Shown here piece after piece: positions 1 to 4,857 of a DNA stretch of 64,000 nt. The position numbers and the translations under genes are program-made. The stretch spans positions 124,001 through 188,000 of the forward strand of contig JAKRSF010000013.1 in the NCBI GenBank assembly GCA_022402445.1. The letters are read 5' to 3'. Every line of letters begins with the position of its first letter. Position 1 is the first letter of the stretch. This DNA comes from Cyanobacteriota bacterium. GTDB lineage: Bacteria > Cyanobacteriota > Cyanobacteriia > CACIAM-69d. The notes beneath the pieces were generated by a model, which had not been told where the DNA came from, searched no databases, and was given only the letters and a program-made list of their open reading frames with translations.

Positions 1-693
1 GTCAAAATACAGCGCCACCGGCTCATCCGCATGGTGAGCCGACAAAATCCGCTCCAGTTCCCGCAACGTGCGACCGGGCACCGTCACCTCAAACTCCTCC
101 AGGGGCGGCAGCTCCTCCCCATCATCATCGAGGCCCCCCACCGCCGCCTTCACCACCGCCAGCCGGTGGCCATCCGTCGCCGCAAACTCCAGGGAATCCC
201 CCTTCACCGACAGATGCACCCCCGTCAGCACCTGCTTCGTCTCATCGGAACTGGCGGCAAACAGCGCCCCCCGCAGCCCCTCTAGGAGCGCATCCACGGG
301 CAAATAGGCCGGTTCACCATTTTCGACCACCGGCAGGGCCGTGAACTCCTCAGCCCCCATGCCCTGGATGCTGTAGCGACCGCTCTGGGCCGTCAGGATG
401 GCGGTGCTCTCGTCCGTCAACTCCAGGGTCAAGGCCCCATTGGGCAAACGGCTCACAATGTCCGCCAGCAGCTTCGCCGGTAGGGTAATTTCCCCCGAGT
501 CATCCACCTCCGCCGGGAAGCTGGTTTGGATCCCAAAGCTCAGGTCAAAGGCCGTCAGGCTCACCCGCTGGGTGCCCGCATCGCAGGTGAGGAGAACGTT
601 GGCCAGGACCGGGTGGGTCGGGCGCGAGGGCACGGCGCGGCTCACCAGGGACAGGTTGGCGTTCAGGTCGCTTTGGGCGCAGAGCAGTTTCAC
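1..693 (-). CDS. dnaN: DNA polymerase III beta subunit (sliding clamp), partial
   Basis: Encodes the N-terminal 231 residues of the beta clamp, which tethers the replicative polymerase to DNA; the rest lies beyond the left edge. The reading frame opens with GTG at 693-691 and begins VKLLCAQSDLNANLSL, followed by VSRAVPSRPTHPVLANVLL, the highly conserved start of cyanobacterial DnaN. The GTG start is chosen because it gives exactly this family N-terminus and no in-frame ATG matches better. Further conserved stretches include LPAKLLADIVSRLP and the ATDGHRLA segment. The gene is transcribed away from the DnaA-box cluster that lies about 500 bases upstream, the usual dnaN/oriC arrangement of several cyanobacteria. 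Identification is by recognition of the translated sequence; the only limitation is truncation by the window. Confidence 0.96.
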   Translation of the reverse strand, partial: MKLLCAQSDLNANLSLVSRAVPSRPTHPVLANVLLTCDAGTQRVSLTAFDLSFGIQTSFPAEVDDSGEITLPAKLLADIVSRLPNGALTLELTDESTAILTAQSGRYSIQGMGAEEFTALPVVENGEPAYLPVDALLEGLRGALFAASSDETKQVLTGVHLSVKGDSLEFAATDGHRLAVVKAAVGGLDDDGEELPPLEEFEVTVPGRTLRELERILSAHHADEPVALYFD

Positions 694-1163: not shown

Positions 1164-1445
1164 CCTATTTTCTTATTTATTCTTGTTTAGTAGTAGTAGA
1201 GCCTGTGGAAAATGTGGAAAACTTTTAAAAACCCTTACGGGCCAAAGGGTACAGCCGTCGATGCCTGTGGAAAACCTGTGGAAAAACCCACCTACTTTTC
1301 CACAGAGTATTTATACTTAGGAATTAATTTCCACAGGGTATAGGGCCTTTTCCACAGGTTTTCCACAGGTTTTCCACAAAATTATCCACAGATGGCGATC
1401 CGTAGGAAAACTTTTCCACAGGTTTTCCACAGGTTTTCCACAAGA
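1164..1445. other. Chromosomal replication origin (oriC) candidate
   Basis: I count eleven exact copies of the cyanobacterial DnaA box TTTTCCACA. Four lie on the minus strand (1204-1212, 1213-1221, 1266-1274, 1277-1285) and seven on the plus strand (1296-1304, 1348-1356, 1359-1367, 1370-1378, 1412-1420, 1423-1431, 1434-1442). There is also one canonical TTATCCACA (1382-1390) and one ATTTCCACA (1327-1335). Boxes at 1348/1359/1370 and at 1412/1423/1434 are spaced exactly 11 bases, about one helical turn, so they sit on one face of the DNA. The boxes change orientation near 1290. The cluster lies just upstream of dnaN. No gene is supported inside it; minus-strand ORFs here are read-through of the repeats. 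Confidence 0.95.
1166..1199. other. Origin unwinding element: AT-rich tract plus DnaA-trio (TAG)4
   Basis: Reading the minus strand from the DnaA box at 1212-1204, the order is TTTTCCACA, a four-base GGCT linker, then CTACTACTACTA, then a 22-base AT-rich tract (1166-1187). On the plus strand the trinucleotide is (TAG)4 at 1188-1199. This is the order DnaA box, short GC-rich linker, DnaA-trios, AT-rich DNA described for the basal unwinding system of Bacillus subtilis. There the DnaA-trios guide DnaA onto single-stranded DNA. The motif and its spacing are seen directly; the function is inferred from the family model. Confidence 0.8.
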
Positions 1446-1647: not shown

Positions 1648-2058
1648 TTAGCCTTGGGGTTGAGGTGGGGATTGGGGGCGCTTGGGTTGGTAGAGGATGA
1701 CCCGGTTGCCCTGGGGGTCAAGGCCATAGACTTCCTGGCCGTGGGAGGCGGTTTGGATGGGTCCGACGGATCCGCCCGCCGCCTCGAACCGCGCGATCGC
1801 CCCCTGGAGATCCGTCACCTGTAGACAGAGGCTCATCCCCCCCGGCCCCATCCCTTGGAAATCCGGCACCGCCGACGGCTTGGGCACAAAAATTGCCAAC
1901 ACCAGCCCCCCCGGCAGCGTAAATTCCCCGTAGCGGCCCGGTTGGTACCGTTGGGGCTCCGTGCCGAGCAGCCCCCCATAGAACGCCAATAAATCCCCCC
2001 CCGCCCTATCCGCGATCGCCACCACCGCGCGATCGCACCCATCCCATCCCAGTGCCAT
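1648..2058 (-). CDS. VOC-superfamily (glyoxalase/dioxygenase-fold) protein
   Basis: A 136-residue protein with the compact vicinal-oxygen-chelate fold: AIADRAGGDLLAFYGGLLG near the N-terminus, FTLPGGLVLAIFVP in the middle, then SLCLQVTDLQGAIARFEAAGG and the closing YGLDPQGNRVILYQP, the standard last strands of a VOC module. Members bind a divalent metal and act on varied small molecules, for example lactoylglutathione, or confer resistance to certain drugs. The sequence does not say which, so no substrate is assigned. A single module this short would act as a dimer in this superfamily. It reads toward the origin, alone, with the RTX gene divergent on its other side. Family call is firm, function open. 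Confidence 0.82.
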   Translation of the reverse strand: MALGWDGCDRAVVAIADRAGGDLLAFYGGLLGTEPQRYQPGRYGEFTLPGGLVLAIFVPKPSAVPDFQGMGPGGMSLCLQVTDLQGAIARFEAAGGSVGPIQTASHGQEVYGLDPQGNRVILYQPKRPQSPPQPQG

Positions 2059-2712: not shown

Positions 2713-4857
2713 ATGGAACCGGAAACTCTCGTAACCGACCCGACCGTCACCCCCACGGCCCAGACCCCGACGGCCACGGCCCCGACGGAACCCACCACCA
2801 CCCCAACGCCGACGGCCACCCCGACGGCCACGGCTCCGACGGAACCCACCACTACCCCGACGGAACCCACCACCACCCCGCCGGAATCCACCACCACCCC
2901 GCCGGACGCCGTGACCACCACCGCCGTGGATTCACCGGCCCCCACCAGTCCCGATGGCGTCACCACCACCAGCACCCCCACCACCCCGGCACCGGGAGAT
3001 GACCTCGGGGAACTGACGGACGAAGCCGCCCAGTCCATCGCCGGAGCCGACAAGGAAGACATTCTCAACTGCTTTGATGCGAACTACTACCTCGCCCAAA
3101 ACGAGGATGTGGCGACGGAATTCCGGGCAGGACGAGTCACCAACCTGCTGAACCACTTCCTGAACTTTGGACAGTTTGAAGGCCGCTCCGCCAGCGCCTT
3201 CTTCAGCACCTCCACCTACTTCAAGTTCAACATTGACGTGGAGGTTTCCGTTCGGACCGGTGGCTTCAAGAGCGCCTTCTCCCACTTCGTCAAAGTTGGG
3301 GCCAAGGAAAAGCGGAAGTCCAGCGCGTTCCTCGACATCAACGAATATTTCTCCCAGTACTCCGATGTGGCCGCAGCGGCCAGCGCCCAGGGCAAGAGCG
3401 GCACCTTTGCCTTCCGCCACTTCAAGGAGTTTGGCTACAAGGAGAAGCGTTCCTTCAAGTTCTCCTCCAAGGCGTCCTTCAAGTTCGATGAGGAGTACTA
3501 TCTCCGGGCCTATCCCCAGGTGCGGACCCTGATTACACGGGGTGAATTCTCCAATGCCTTTGAGCATTTCGCCTCCGTCGGCATCAACAGCAATTTCAGC
3601 CCCGATCCCTCCTTCAATGTTGATTTCTTCAAGACCTTGAATCCCCAACTTGAGGAGGACTTCAAGACGGGCAAGATCAAGAGCGCATTCCTCTACTATC
3701 TCCAAAACGGTGAAGAGGATGACGATCTGGAGTTTGATCTGGAAAATTCGACCTCTGCGGCCACGGACGGCGCGGATCTCTATCGCGGCAATGGCGATGC
3801 CAATGTGTTCAATGGCTTGGCCGGAGATGACACGCTGCTTGGCTTCGGCGGCGATGACACCCTGACCGGTGCGGCGGGTAATGACGTGATCTTCGGTGGC
3901 GAAGGGAACGACATCATCGTCGGCGGTGCGGGCGGTGACCTGCTGGTTGGCGAGGCGGGCGATGATCTGATCGTCGGCGGCGAAGGGGATGACACCATCG
4001 AAGGGGGTGGCGGCGAAGATTCCCTCTGGGGTAGCGGCGGCAACGACACCTTCGTGTTCGGCAACATCGAGAATGAAGCCGAAGAAGATGATGACGACGA
4101 TGACGATGATGATGACGATAGCGACGACGATGCCGATGATGCGGGCGATGACACGCTAGCGGGCGGCAGCGGCGGTACGTCGAGCTCGTCCTCGGATGAT
4201 GATGACGACGACGATGACGATGATGATGACGACGCCGAGGGCGATGACGACGACGACGATGATGATGACGCGATCGCGGACGGCTCCGGCACTCCGACTA
4301 GCGGCGACGACACCCTAGCTGGCGACGGCGGCTCCGGCACCCCGACCAGCGGTGACGACACCCTAGCTGGCGACGGCGGCGTGGGCGGTGACGATCCGCT
4401 GACGGGCGAAGCTGGCACCGATGTGCTCACGGGCATGTCCACCATCTTTGACTTCGAGGTGGGCAAGGATAAGGTCCAACTGCCGAAGGCGTTTGGTTTC
4501 GAGTCCGGTGAAGAGGTGCTCGATGCCATCACCGACAGCGGCGTGGATACGGATGGCAACCTGTACTCGATGGTGGATATCACGTCGAGCTTCAGCCTGA
4601 AGATCTACCACGATGTGGAGCTGGTGGCCGATAGCTTCAAGATTGGCTTCGGCAGCACGTCTGGCATGGAGGGCGGTGACGACGACGGCGCGGGCACGGG
4701 TTCCGTGGGCGGTGGCGATCCGTTTGGCTCCCTCAGCGGTCTGGTGGGTCTGCCCCCGGGCTTGGCGAAGCAGGTGCTGCTCGGTAAGCGGACGTTTGAT
4801 ACCCTGCCTTCGGGGATCCAGAAGCGCTTCGGTGGCCGCGATCGCGATGACGACTAG
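2713..4857 (+). CDS. Large secreted RTX-type calcium-binding protein with Thr/Pro N-terminus and Asp tracts
   Basis: A 714-residue protein of modular make-up. Residues 1-100 are almost only Thr, Pro, Glu and Ala (TPTATAPTEPTTTP units). Residues about 115-340 hold five roughly 45-residue modules of the type DxxYYLxxNxDV ... FxHFxxxGxxExR, common in large cyanobacterial surface proteins. Residues about 353-452 are glycine/aspartate nonapeptides (GGxGxDxxx, for example GGEGDDTIEG), the calcium-binding beta-roll of RTX proteins. Residues about 457-525 contain long pure aspartate runs. Two 16-residue copies of a GSGTPTSGDDTLAGDG unit follow, and the C-terminus carries TIFDFEVGKDKVQLP, typical of the end domain of type I secreted RTX proteins. 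No signal peptide is visible, which fits type I (ABC/TolC) export. No export genes lie nearby. A role in adhesion or surface layer is inference. Confidence 0.88.
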   Translation: MEPETLVTDPTVTPTAQTPTATAPTEPTTTPTPTATPTATAPTEPTTTPTEPTTTPPESTTTPPDAVTTTAVDSPAPTSPDGVTTTSTPTTPAPGDDLGELTDEAAQSIAGADKEDILNCFDANYYLAQNEDVATEFRAGRVTNLLNHFLNFGQFEGRSASAFFSTSTYFKFNIDVEVSVRTGGFKSAFSHFVKVGAKEKRKSSAFLDINEYFSQYSDVAAAASAQGKSGTFAFRHFKEFGYKEKRSFKFSSKASFKFDEEYYLRAYPQVRTLITRGEFSNAFEHFASVGINSNFSPDPSFNVDFFKTLNPQLEEDFKTGKIKSAFLYYLQNGEEDDDLEFDLENSTSAATDGADLYRGNGDANVFNGLAGDDTLLGFGGDDTLTGAAGNDVIFGGEGNDIIVGGAGGDLLVGEAGDDLIVGGEGDDTIEGGGGEDSLWGSGGNDTFVFGNIENEAEEDDDDDDDDDDDSDDDADDAGDDTLAGGSGGTSSSSSDDDDDDDDDDDDDAEGDDDDDDDDDAIADGSGTPTSGDDTLAGDGGSGTPTSGDDTLAGDGGVGGDDPLTGEAGTDVLTGMSTIFDFEVGKDKVQLPKAFGFESGEEVLDAITDSGVDTDGNLYSMVDITSSFSLKIYHDVELVADSFKIGFGSTSGMEGGDDDGAGTGSVGGGDPFGSLSGLVGLPPGLAKQVLLGKRTFDTLPSGIQKRFGGRDRDDD
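4282..4377 (+). repeat. 48-bp direct tandem duplication inside the RTX gene
   Basis: Two adjacent 48-base units (4282-4329 and 4330-4377) differ at only a few third positions and encode the same 16 residues, starting GSGTPTSGDD. Being in frame, the duplication can expand or contract without breaking the gene. Confidence 0.9.

Follow-up and report, generated by a model that had tools for sequence, protein, structure and literature searches.

The stretch of DNA analysed here (the 64-kb window, C5:124001-188000 of a 4,077,419-bp draft genome in 13 contigs) carries a dense cluster of DnaA boxes beside dnaN. The question raised by this locus is whether it is the chromosomal replication origin and whether so rich a cluster implies strict control by DnaA. 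The sequence count showed eleven exact TTTTCCACA boxes within 239 bp (1204-1442), against a mean of 0.24 and a maximum of 3 when the whole window was dinucleotide-shuffled 100 times. In the genome-wide count, 12 of the 64 TTWTCCACA sites lie inside these 239 bp. With one TTATCCACA box (1382-1390, plus strand) and one variant box ATTTCCACA (1327-1335, plus strand), the result agrees with the earlier note, which had described eleven exact boxes and two variants in fewer than 250 bases.

The gene to the left, dnaN (DNA polymerase III beta clamp; 1-693, minus strand; Pfam PF00712, 1.9e-28, and PF02767, 1.3e-16), is truncated by the window edge and transcribed away from the box cluster. Its orthologues were found in 39 of 39 relatives, and in one genome (G339, contig C19) dnaN is apparently interrupted by stop codons. 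The right boundary of the intergenic region is a glyoxalase-like gene (1648-2058, minus strand; PF00903, 2.6e-05, and PF18029, 1.5e-05). Farther to the right, positions 2713-4857 encode an RTX-repeat protein with very long aspartate and threonine/proline runs.

The left edge of the cluster, read on the minus strand, has the structure TTTTCCACA-TTTTCCACA-GGCT-CTACTACTACTA-AACAAGAATAAATAAGAAAATAGGG. It consists of two exact abutting boxes (1204-1221, of which 1204-1212 is proximal and 1213-1221 distal to the trios), the GC-rich 4-nt linker GGCT (1200-1203), four perfect CTA (3'-GAT-5') repeats, the DnaA-trios (1188-1199), and an AT-rich tract that is the probable DNA unwinding element (1163-1187). 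The AT content of positions 1161-1191 is 74% vs 37% for the contig (contig GC 63%), and CTACTACTACTA or its complement occurs only once in the entire 365-kb contig. In the relatives, the tandem is conserved, the trios lie in the same place and likewise precede an AT-rich tract, and the linker is 4 nt long in most of those that bear the module.

The order of a DnaA box, a short GC linker, 3'-GAT-5' trios and an AT tract is that of the basal unwinding system, BUS (PMC8287927, PMC6669920), and the earlier reading of this edge as a BUS was confirmed. Such a system comprises one or two DnaA boxes at most 16 bp from the trios, at least three consecutive 3'-NAN-5' trios with GAT preferred, an AT-rich tract past them and a cognate DnaA with ISM isoleucines and an Arg finger, all of which are found here. 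A BUS is predicted in 85% of 2070 origins, and that of S. elongatus was reconstituted in vitro in 2021 with its own DnaA and oriC, the opening requiring boxes, trios, the Arg finger and the ISM isoleucine (PMC8287927).

The earlier note had made its interpretation depend on the presence of dnaA, as does the definition of a strictly DnaA-dependent origin of the S. elongatus type. One full-length, intact copy (535 bits) is present in the genome, on another contig than the box cluster. The protein has domains I, III and IV. In the alignment to PDB 8btg, its I217 and I220 correspond to the ssDNA-binding ISM isoleucines I190 and I193 of B. subtilis, and its Arg finger aligns with R264. The DnaA of S. 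elongatus is 79% identical in domains III-IV. The boxes and the trios are also conserved in close relatives, the same origin core being present in four genomes of the same family (L022-L025) and in many other families.

To the right of the BUS lies a central group composed of a box pair on the minus strand (1266-1274 and 1277-1285, both exact TTTTCCACA), a pair present in the 41 origins anchored on the box triple, and an opposed exact TTTTCCACA box on the plus strand (1296-1304), 85 bp from the trio-proximal box of the BUS. Two base pairs beyond the opposed box there is a conserved dyad, GTATTTATAC (GTATAAATAC on the opposite strand; 1307-1316). The plus strand then carries two three-box arrays (1348-1378, with boxes at 1348, 1359 and 1370, and 1412-1442, with boxes at 1412, 1423 and 1434). 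The exact 11-base spacing noted previously was confirmed as the start-to-start distance in both arrays, and positions 1411-1443 are an exact 33-nt duplicate of 1347-1379.

The palindrome TGGATCCA occurs seven times around the box cluster, at 1052-1059, 1122-1129, 1531-1538, 1551-1558, 1563-1570, 1619-1626 and 1631-1638. These copies lie on both sides of the cluster and account for 7 of 22 copies counted on the 365-kb contig, and pairs at most 30 bp apart were found nowhere else in the genome. In the relatives checked, no dnaN-flanking locus has more than two GGATCC sites, and TGGATCCA is possibly a private origin-flanking site.

An intergenic TTTTCCACA cluster adjoining dnaN, one mark of a cyanobacterial oriC in the sense of DoriC/Ori-Finder, is present; a GC-skew minimum, the other mark, was not seen at the locus on the 365-kb contig, which is part of the chromosome. 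The skew inversion anticipated by the earlier note was likewise not observed on this contig, the mean being about -0.005 both to the left and to the right. The 10-kb values scatter within about 0.05 of zero, mostly with an absolute skew below 0.04, and the minimum of the cumulative skew of the contig lies at 280.9 kb, 156 kb from the locus. No gene-strand bias was found either (plus-strand coding fraction 0.41 to the left of the locus and 0.40 to the right), and half of an 803-kb contig showed an equally flat skew. As irregular skew is common in cyanobacteria and an unreliable origin marker (PMC5987646, PMC7198777), the missing inversion weakens the assignment without refuting it. Irregular skew correlates with DnaA independence and polyploidy (PMC7198777), so the claim of strict DnaA control gains no support from it, although it is not refuted by it either.

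Considering the BUS order, the intact dnaA with its key residues and the in vitro opening of the S. elongatus system, the cluster adjoining dnaN is very probably a DnaA-dependent oriC. We are confident, on the strength of sequence and homology, that the locus would act as the chromosomal replication origin, with DnaA opening the duplex at the BUS and the central boxes, distal boxes and dyad assisting. From this anatomy we infer initiation at the locus, BUS opening in this species, looping and a role of the dyad. DnaA would bind the clustered TTTTCCACA boxes, and an oligomer would grow from the tandem (1213-1221 and 1204-1212) across the GGCT linker to contact and stretch the strand complementary to CTACTACTACTA. 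Through this stretching, the duplex would open (1163-1199) into the AT-rich tract towards dnaN, and the opened tract would allow helicase loading. The central opposed group (1266-1304), 85 bp or about eight helical turns from the BUS, probably loops onto the BUS or raises the local DnaA concentration. The distal arrays probably do the same, by analogy with the distal box group of B. subtilis, which exerts its effect on the BUS by DNA looping (PMC6669920). Something that establishes the complex is probably bound or bent at the dyad next to the opposed box, and the dyad would thereby place or bend the central group.

Thus, the oriC-type locus, the complete BUS, the intact dnaA and the conservation within the family stood up to analysis, while novelty, strict control and the skew did not. 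The earlier note went too far in calling cyanobacterial origins poorly studied: dnaN-linked TTTTCCACA origins are standard in the phylum (68 were tabulated in 2015, with 1 to 12 boxes each; PMC4674748), and a cyanobacterial BUS was tested in 2021 (PMC8287927). The origin described here is of a known type, not new in kind, and is a clean example of it.

The flat, irregular skew and the absence of gene-strand bias are the state reported for DnaA-independent cyanobacteria (PMC7198777), and they would suit a locus that is intact in sequence and nevertheless optional or a relict, in a polyploid cell with several DnaA-independent start sites like Synechocystis 6803 or Nostoc 7120. We regard this as improbable. 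The trios are perfect here, whereas they are decayed in lineages with DnaA-dispensable members (a BUS at 0 of 56 Nostocales-type loci among the matches listed), DnaA is fully conserved, the BUS is kept at all four same-family dnaN loci examined, and a flat skew may have other causes, e.g., rearrangement. It is far less credible still that the cluster only titrates DnaA or regulates dnaN and contains no start site. The cluster does lie upstream of dnaN, DnaA regulates genes in other bacteria, and three boxes at C5:304331-304380 demonstrate that box clusters exist without a BUS, but regulation does not need the order of tandem box, linker, trios and AT tract, no sigma-70-like promoter was found within 600-1750, and one genome (G023) has the core beside dnaA, with dnaN megabases away in assembly coordinates. 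A DnaA-opened origin remains our preferred reading of the locus.

To follow the module through the phylum, a strict BUS pattern (TTTCCACA, 3-5 nt, CTAYTACTR) was used. It was present in 39 of 386 genomes from 22 genera, at most once per genome, while the reversed-pattern control gave 3 hits in the 386 genomes. In the comparison anchored on dnaN, most relatives with a box cluster had CTA trios and a linker of 4 nt. Conservation of the trio module extends from Gloeobacter to Prochlorococcus; its core was found in the genomes that we take to be S. elongatus PCC 6301 (G035), T. elongatus BP-1 (G034) and Gloeobacter violaceus PCC 7421 (G018), in a second Gloeobacter-type genome and in a presumed Prochlorococcus genome. 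The f17 genomes G021 and G261 (L116, L117) kept the BUS and use TTATCCACA boxes throughout, so the box preference has switched in this lineage.

For counting, a stricter CTA/TTA definition of the trios was applied, because the permissive published criterion of three NAN within 16 bp is very loose. The stricter definition misses some cases in which the trio-proximal box is degenerate (L028, L042, L044 and L047), and these were read by eye. The shuffled control for it gave 31 of 375, a value that is too high, since genuine trio sequence was part of what was shuffled.

The module is absent from several groups. Nine sampled genomes without dnaA carried no BUS and no more than one box near dnaN, in so far as dnaN was located in them. 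In families f29, f31 and f32, several genomes that do have dnaA showed a few boxes at most and lacked trios at dnaN; in those for which the dnaA flank was examined as well, this flank was likewise without trios. Among the matches listed in a scan covering 84,980 species, the canonical BUS occurred at 0 of 56 Nostocales-type loci vs 14 of 19 other cyanobacterial loci. Selection of these loci rested on the dyad rather than on the BUS, so the comparison is not circular. The 56 loci are related within Nostocales and hence not independent. The central boxes are intact at these 56 loci. In a quick DnaA tree, the trio-less, dnaA-bearing families f30, f29 and f32 grouped together (support 0.86), and f31 adjoined BUS-bearing genomes. 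The Nostocales DnaA proteins checked had lost none of the ssDNA-binding or Arg-finger residues, so trio loss there is not explained by visible decay of these residues.

Read at the level of sequence, this distribution shows that the predicted DNA-opening module was lost in several lineages, one of which no longer needs DnaA. Unlike S. elongatus, Nostoc 7120 and Synechocystis 6803 can do without DnaA (PMC7198777), and loss of the trios in DnaA-independent lineages was predicted by the authors of the 2021 study (PMC8287927); the absence of trios in Nostocales and in genomes without dnaA fits this prediction. The earlier suggestion that an origin so rich in boxes implies strict DnaA control did not hold, as box clusters are kept in Nostocales and DnaA is nevertheless dispensable in Nostoc 7120 (PMC7198777). 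Box number is accordingly a poor predictor of DnaA dependence, and the BUS trios look like a better one.

The second conserved element, the dyad GTAT(A/T)(A/T)ATAC, is separated from the opposed central box by 2 bp and from the BUS by 84-87 bp; about 18 families, Gloeobacter among them, have it in this position. The recurring arrangement is GTATAAATAC, 2 bp, TGTGGAAAA, 8-11 bp, TTTTCCACA, 2-3 bp, TTTTCCACA, about 44 bp and the BUS. The distance from the opposed box to the trio-proximal box is 84-87 bp in about twenty loci; in the single clear exception (L026/L090) it is 108 bp, and two additional box units of 11 bp are present there. By analogy, the constancy of this distance of about eight turns, which one lineage has changed by two box units, suggests that the central group may act by a loop. 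With at most two mismatches, the dyad was present in 20 of 41 origins anchored on the box triple alone, against a background of 0.09% per position. The dyad together with the box occurred in 31 of 386 cyanobacterial genomes and the reversed control in 0 of 386. In the scan of 84,980 species, 75 of 80 loci among the matches listed were cyanobacterial and five were scattered. The BUS does not require the dyad, as none of the loci examined in S. elongatus, Thermosynechococcus and Prochlorococcus has it. Its presence in Gloeobacter-type genomes makes the dyad probably ancestral. A text search of mainly non-subscription literature returned no origin-related description of the motif, and an earlier mention is possible.

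The form of the dyad varies between lineages. In Nostocales it persists as AAGTATAATTACC, often 100-400 bp before dnaN. Pseudanabaena-type genomes have the asymmetric centre the other way round (GTATTTATAC), with GTA and TAC unchanged on the outside. The Nostocales form includes TATAAT, so the dyad might be the -10 element of a promoter directed towards the BUS and dnaN, serving transcriptional activation of the origin or DnaA-controlled expression of dnaN, and its position before dnaN would agree with this. We find that reading unlikely, and the dyad was rejected as a dnaN promoter: no -35-like partner and no sigma-70-like match were found in the window, the centre is flipped in the Pseudanabaena type while GTA and TAC stay, and the dyad persists where dnaN is 3.4-4.2 kb away or farther (L159, L188, L189, L122) or megabases away (G023). 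A second, oppositely directed trio unwinding site is more doubtful still. The sequence TTTTCCACA-GA-GTATTTATACTT does satisfy the NTN rule over four triplets, both in the window and in many relatives, but the register is broken in Pseudanabaena-type (GTA TAA ATA) and Rivularia-type (GTA TAT ATA) genomes, where the GTA-N4-TAC symmetry is retained, and this candidate was rejected on these genomes. Together, the reversed centre and the broken register with GTA and TAC kept argue against a trio or a promoter of fixed direction; they argue for a predicted symmetric site or flexible bend.

Two further candidates were set aside. An NtcA site is GTA-N8-TAC; the dyad shares the GTA and TAC half-sites, but its spacing is 4, so it was not called NtcA. 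The dyad was also rejected as the operator of a regulon, since the 4.08-Mb genome has just two copies of GTATAAATAC, which is therefore not a general operator.

As the box-dyad module outlives the trios in Nostocales, it may serve a function of DnaA that is separable from strand opening. We tentatively propose, as a possibility that falls somewhat short of an even chance, an ancestral core of oxygenic cyanobacteria in which the GTA-N4-TAC dyad and the opposed box, separated by 2 bp, stand at a fixed 84-87 bp from the BUS (in one lineage with exactly two 11-bp box units added), a core not described in the searchable literature. The dyad would be the site of an origin-binding or bending factor, the module would serve this separable function, and the trios would mark those cyanobacteria that initiate with DnaA. 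The need for DnaA in cyanobacteria has so far been settled knockout by knockout. If retention of the trios tracks DnaA dependence, a link to which the comparisons point, the sequence could reveal which cyanobacteria depend on DnaA, and this could be checked across the phylum. A box-dyad module that survives trio loss would offer a concrete site for studying DnaA where it is kept but not needed (PMC7198777). The pattern of trio loss across the phylum and the dyad element are what goes beyond the earlier note.

Among the named systems, the oriC/BUS of Synechococcus elongatus (Pelliciari et al. 2021, PMC8287927; L034 from G035) shares the dnaN linkage, TTTTCCACA boxes, abutting tandem, 4-nt linker and CTA trios, as well as the central box group and its distance; its BUS opening was demonstrated in vitro. 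It differs in that it is without the GTATAAATAC dyad and has 8 boxes near dnaN vs 12 here and a reported regular V-shaped GC skew vs the flat one here. The oriC of Thermosynechococcus elongatus BP-1 (12 boxes, PMC4674748; L081 from G034) likewise has a rich TTTTCCACA cluster, the central pair and a BUS, but it does not adjoin dnaN and has no dyad. The Nostoc/Anabaena dnaA-oriC-dnaN region (PMC5987646; L122-L200) has the opposed box triple of the centre and, in the form GTATAATTAC, the dyad, both at the same positions, while the trio module is decayed or missing, edge boxes are often lost and DnaA is dispensable in Nostoc 7120. The incC BUS of Bacillus subtilis (PMC6669920, PDB 8btg) shares the box pair, short GC linker, 3'-GAT-5' trios and AT tract, and its distal box group acting at a distance can be likened to the box groups here. 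It differs in its dnaA-dnaN context, other box spacings and Firmicute helicase-loading partners, and the available part of the article does not mention a dyad.

Two smaller groups of DnaA boxes were observed elsewhere in the genome. One, at C4:737-821 (L277), near the end of a 73-kb contig, has three exact boxes and variants and is without trios. The other, at C5:304331-304380 (L017:4331-4380), consists of three TTTTCCACA boxes spaced 20-21 bp apart between the 3' ends of convergent GMP-synthase-like and cation-efflux-transporter-like genes, named from their translations, and could titrate DnaA.
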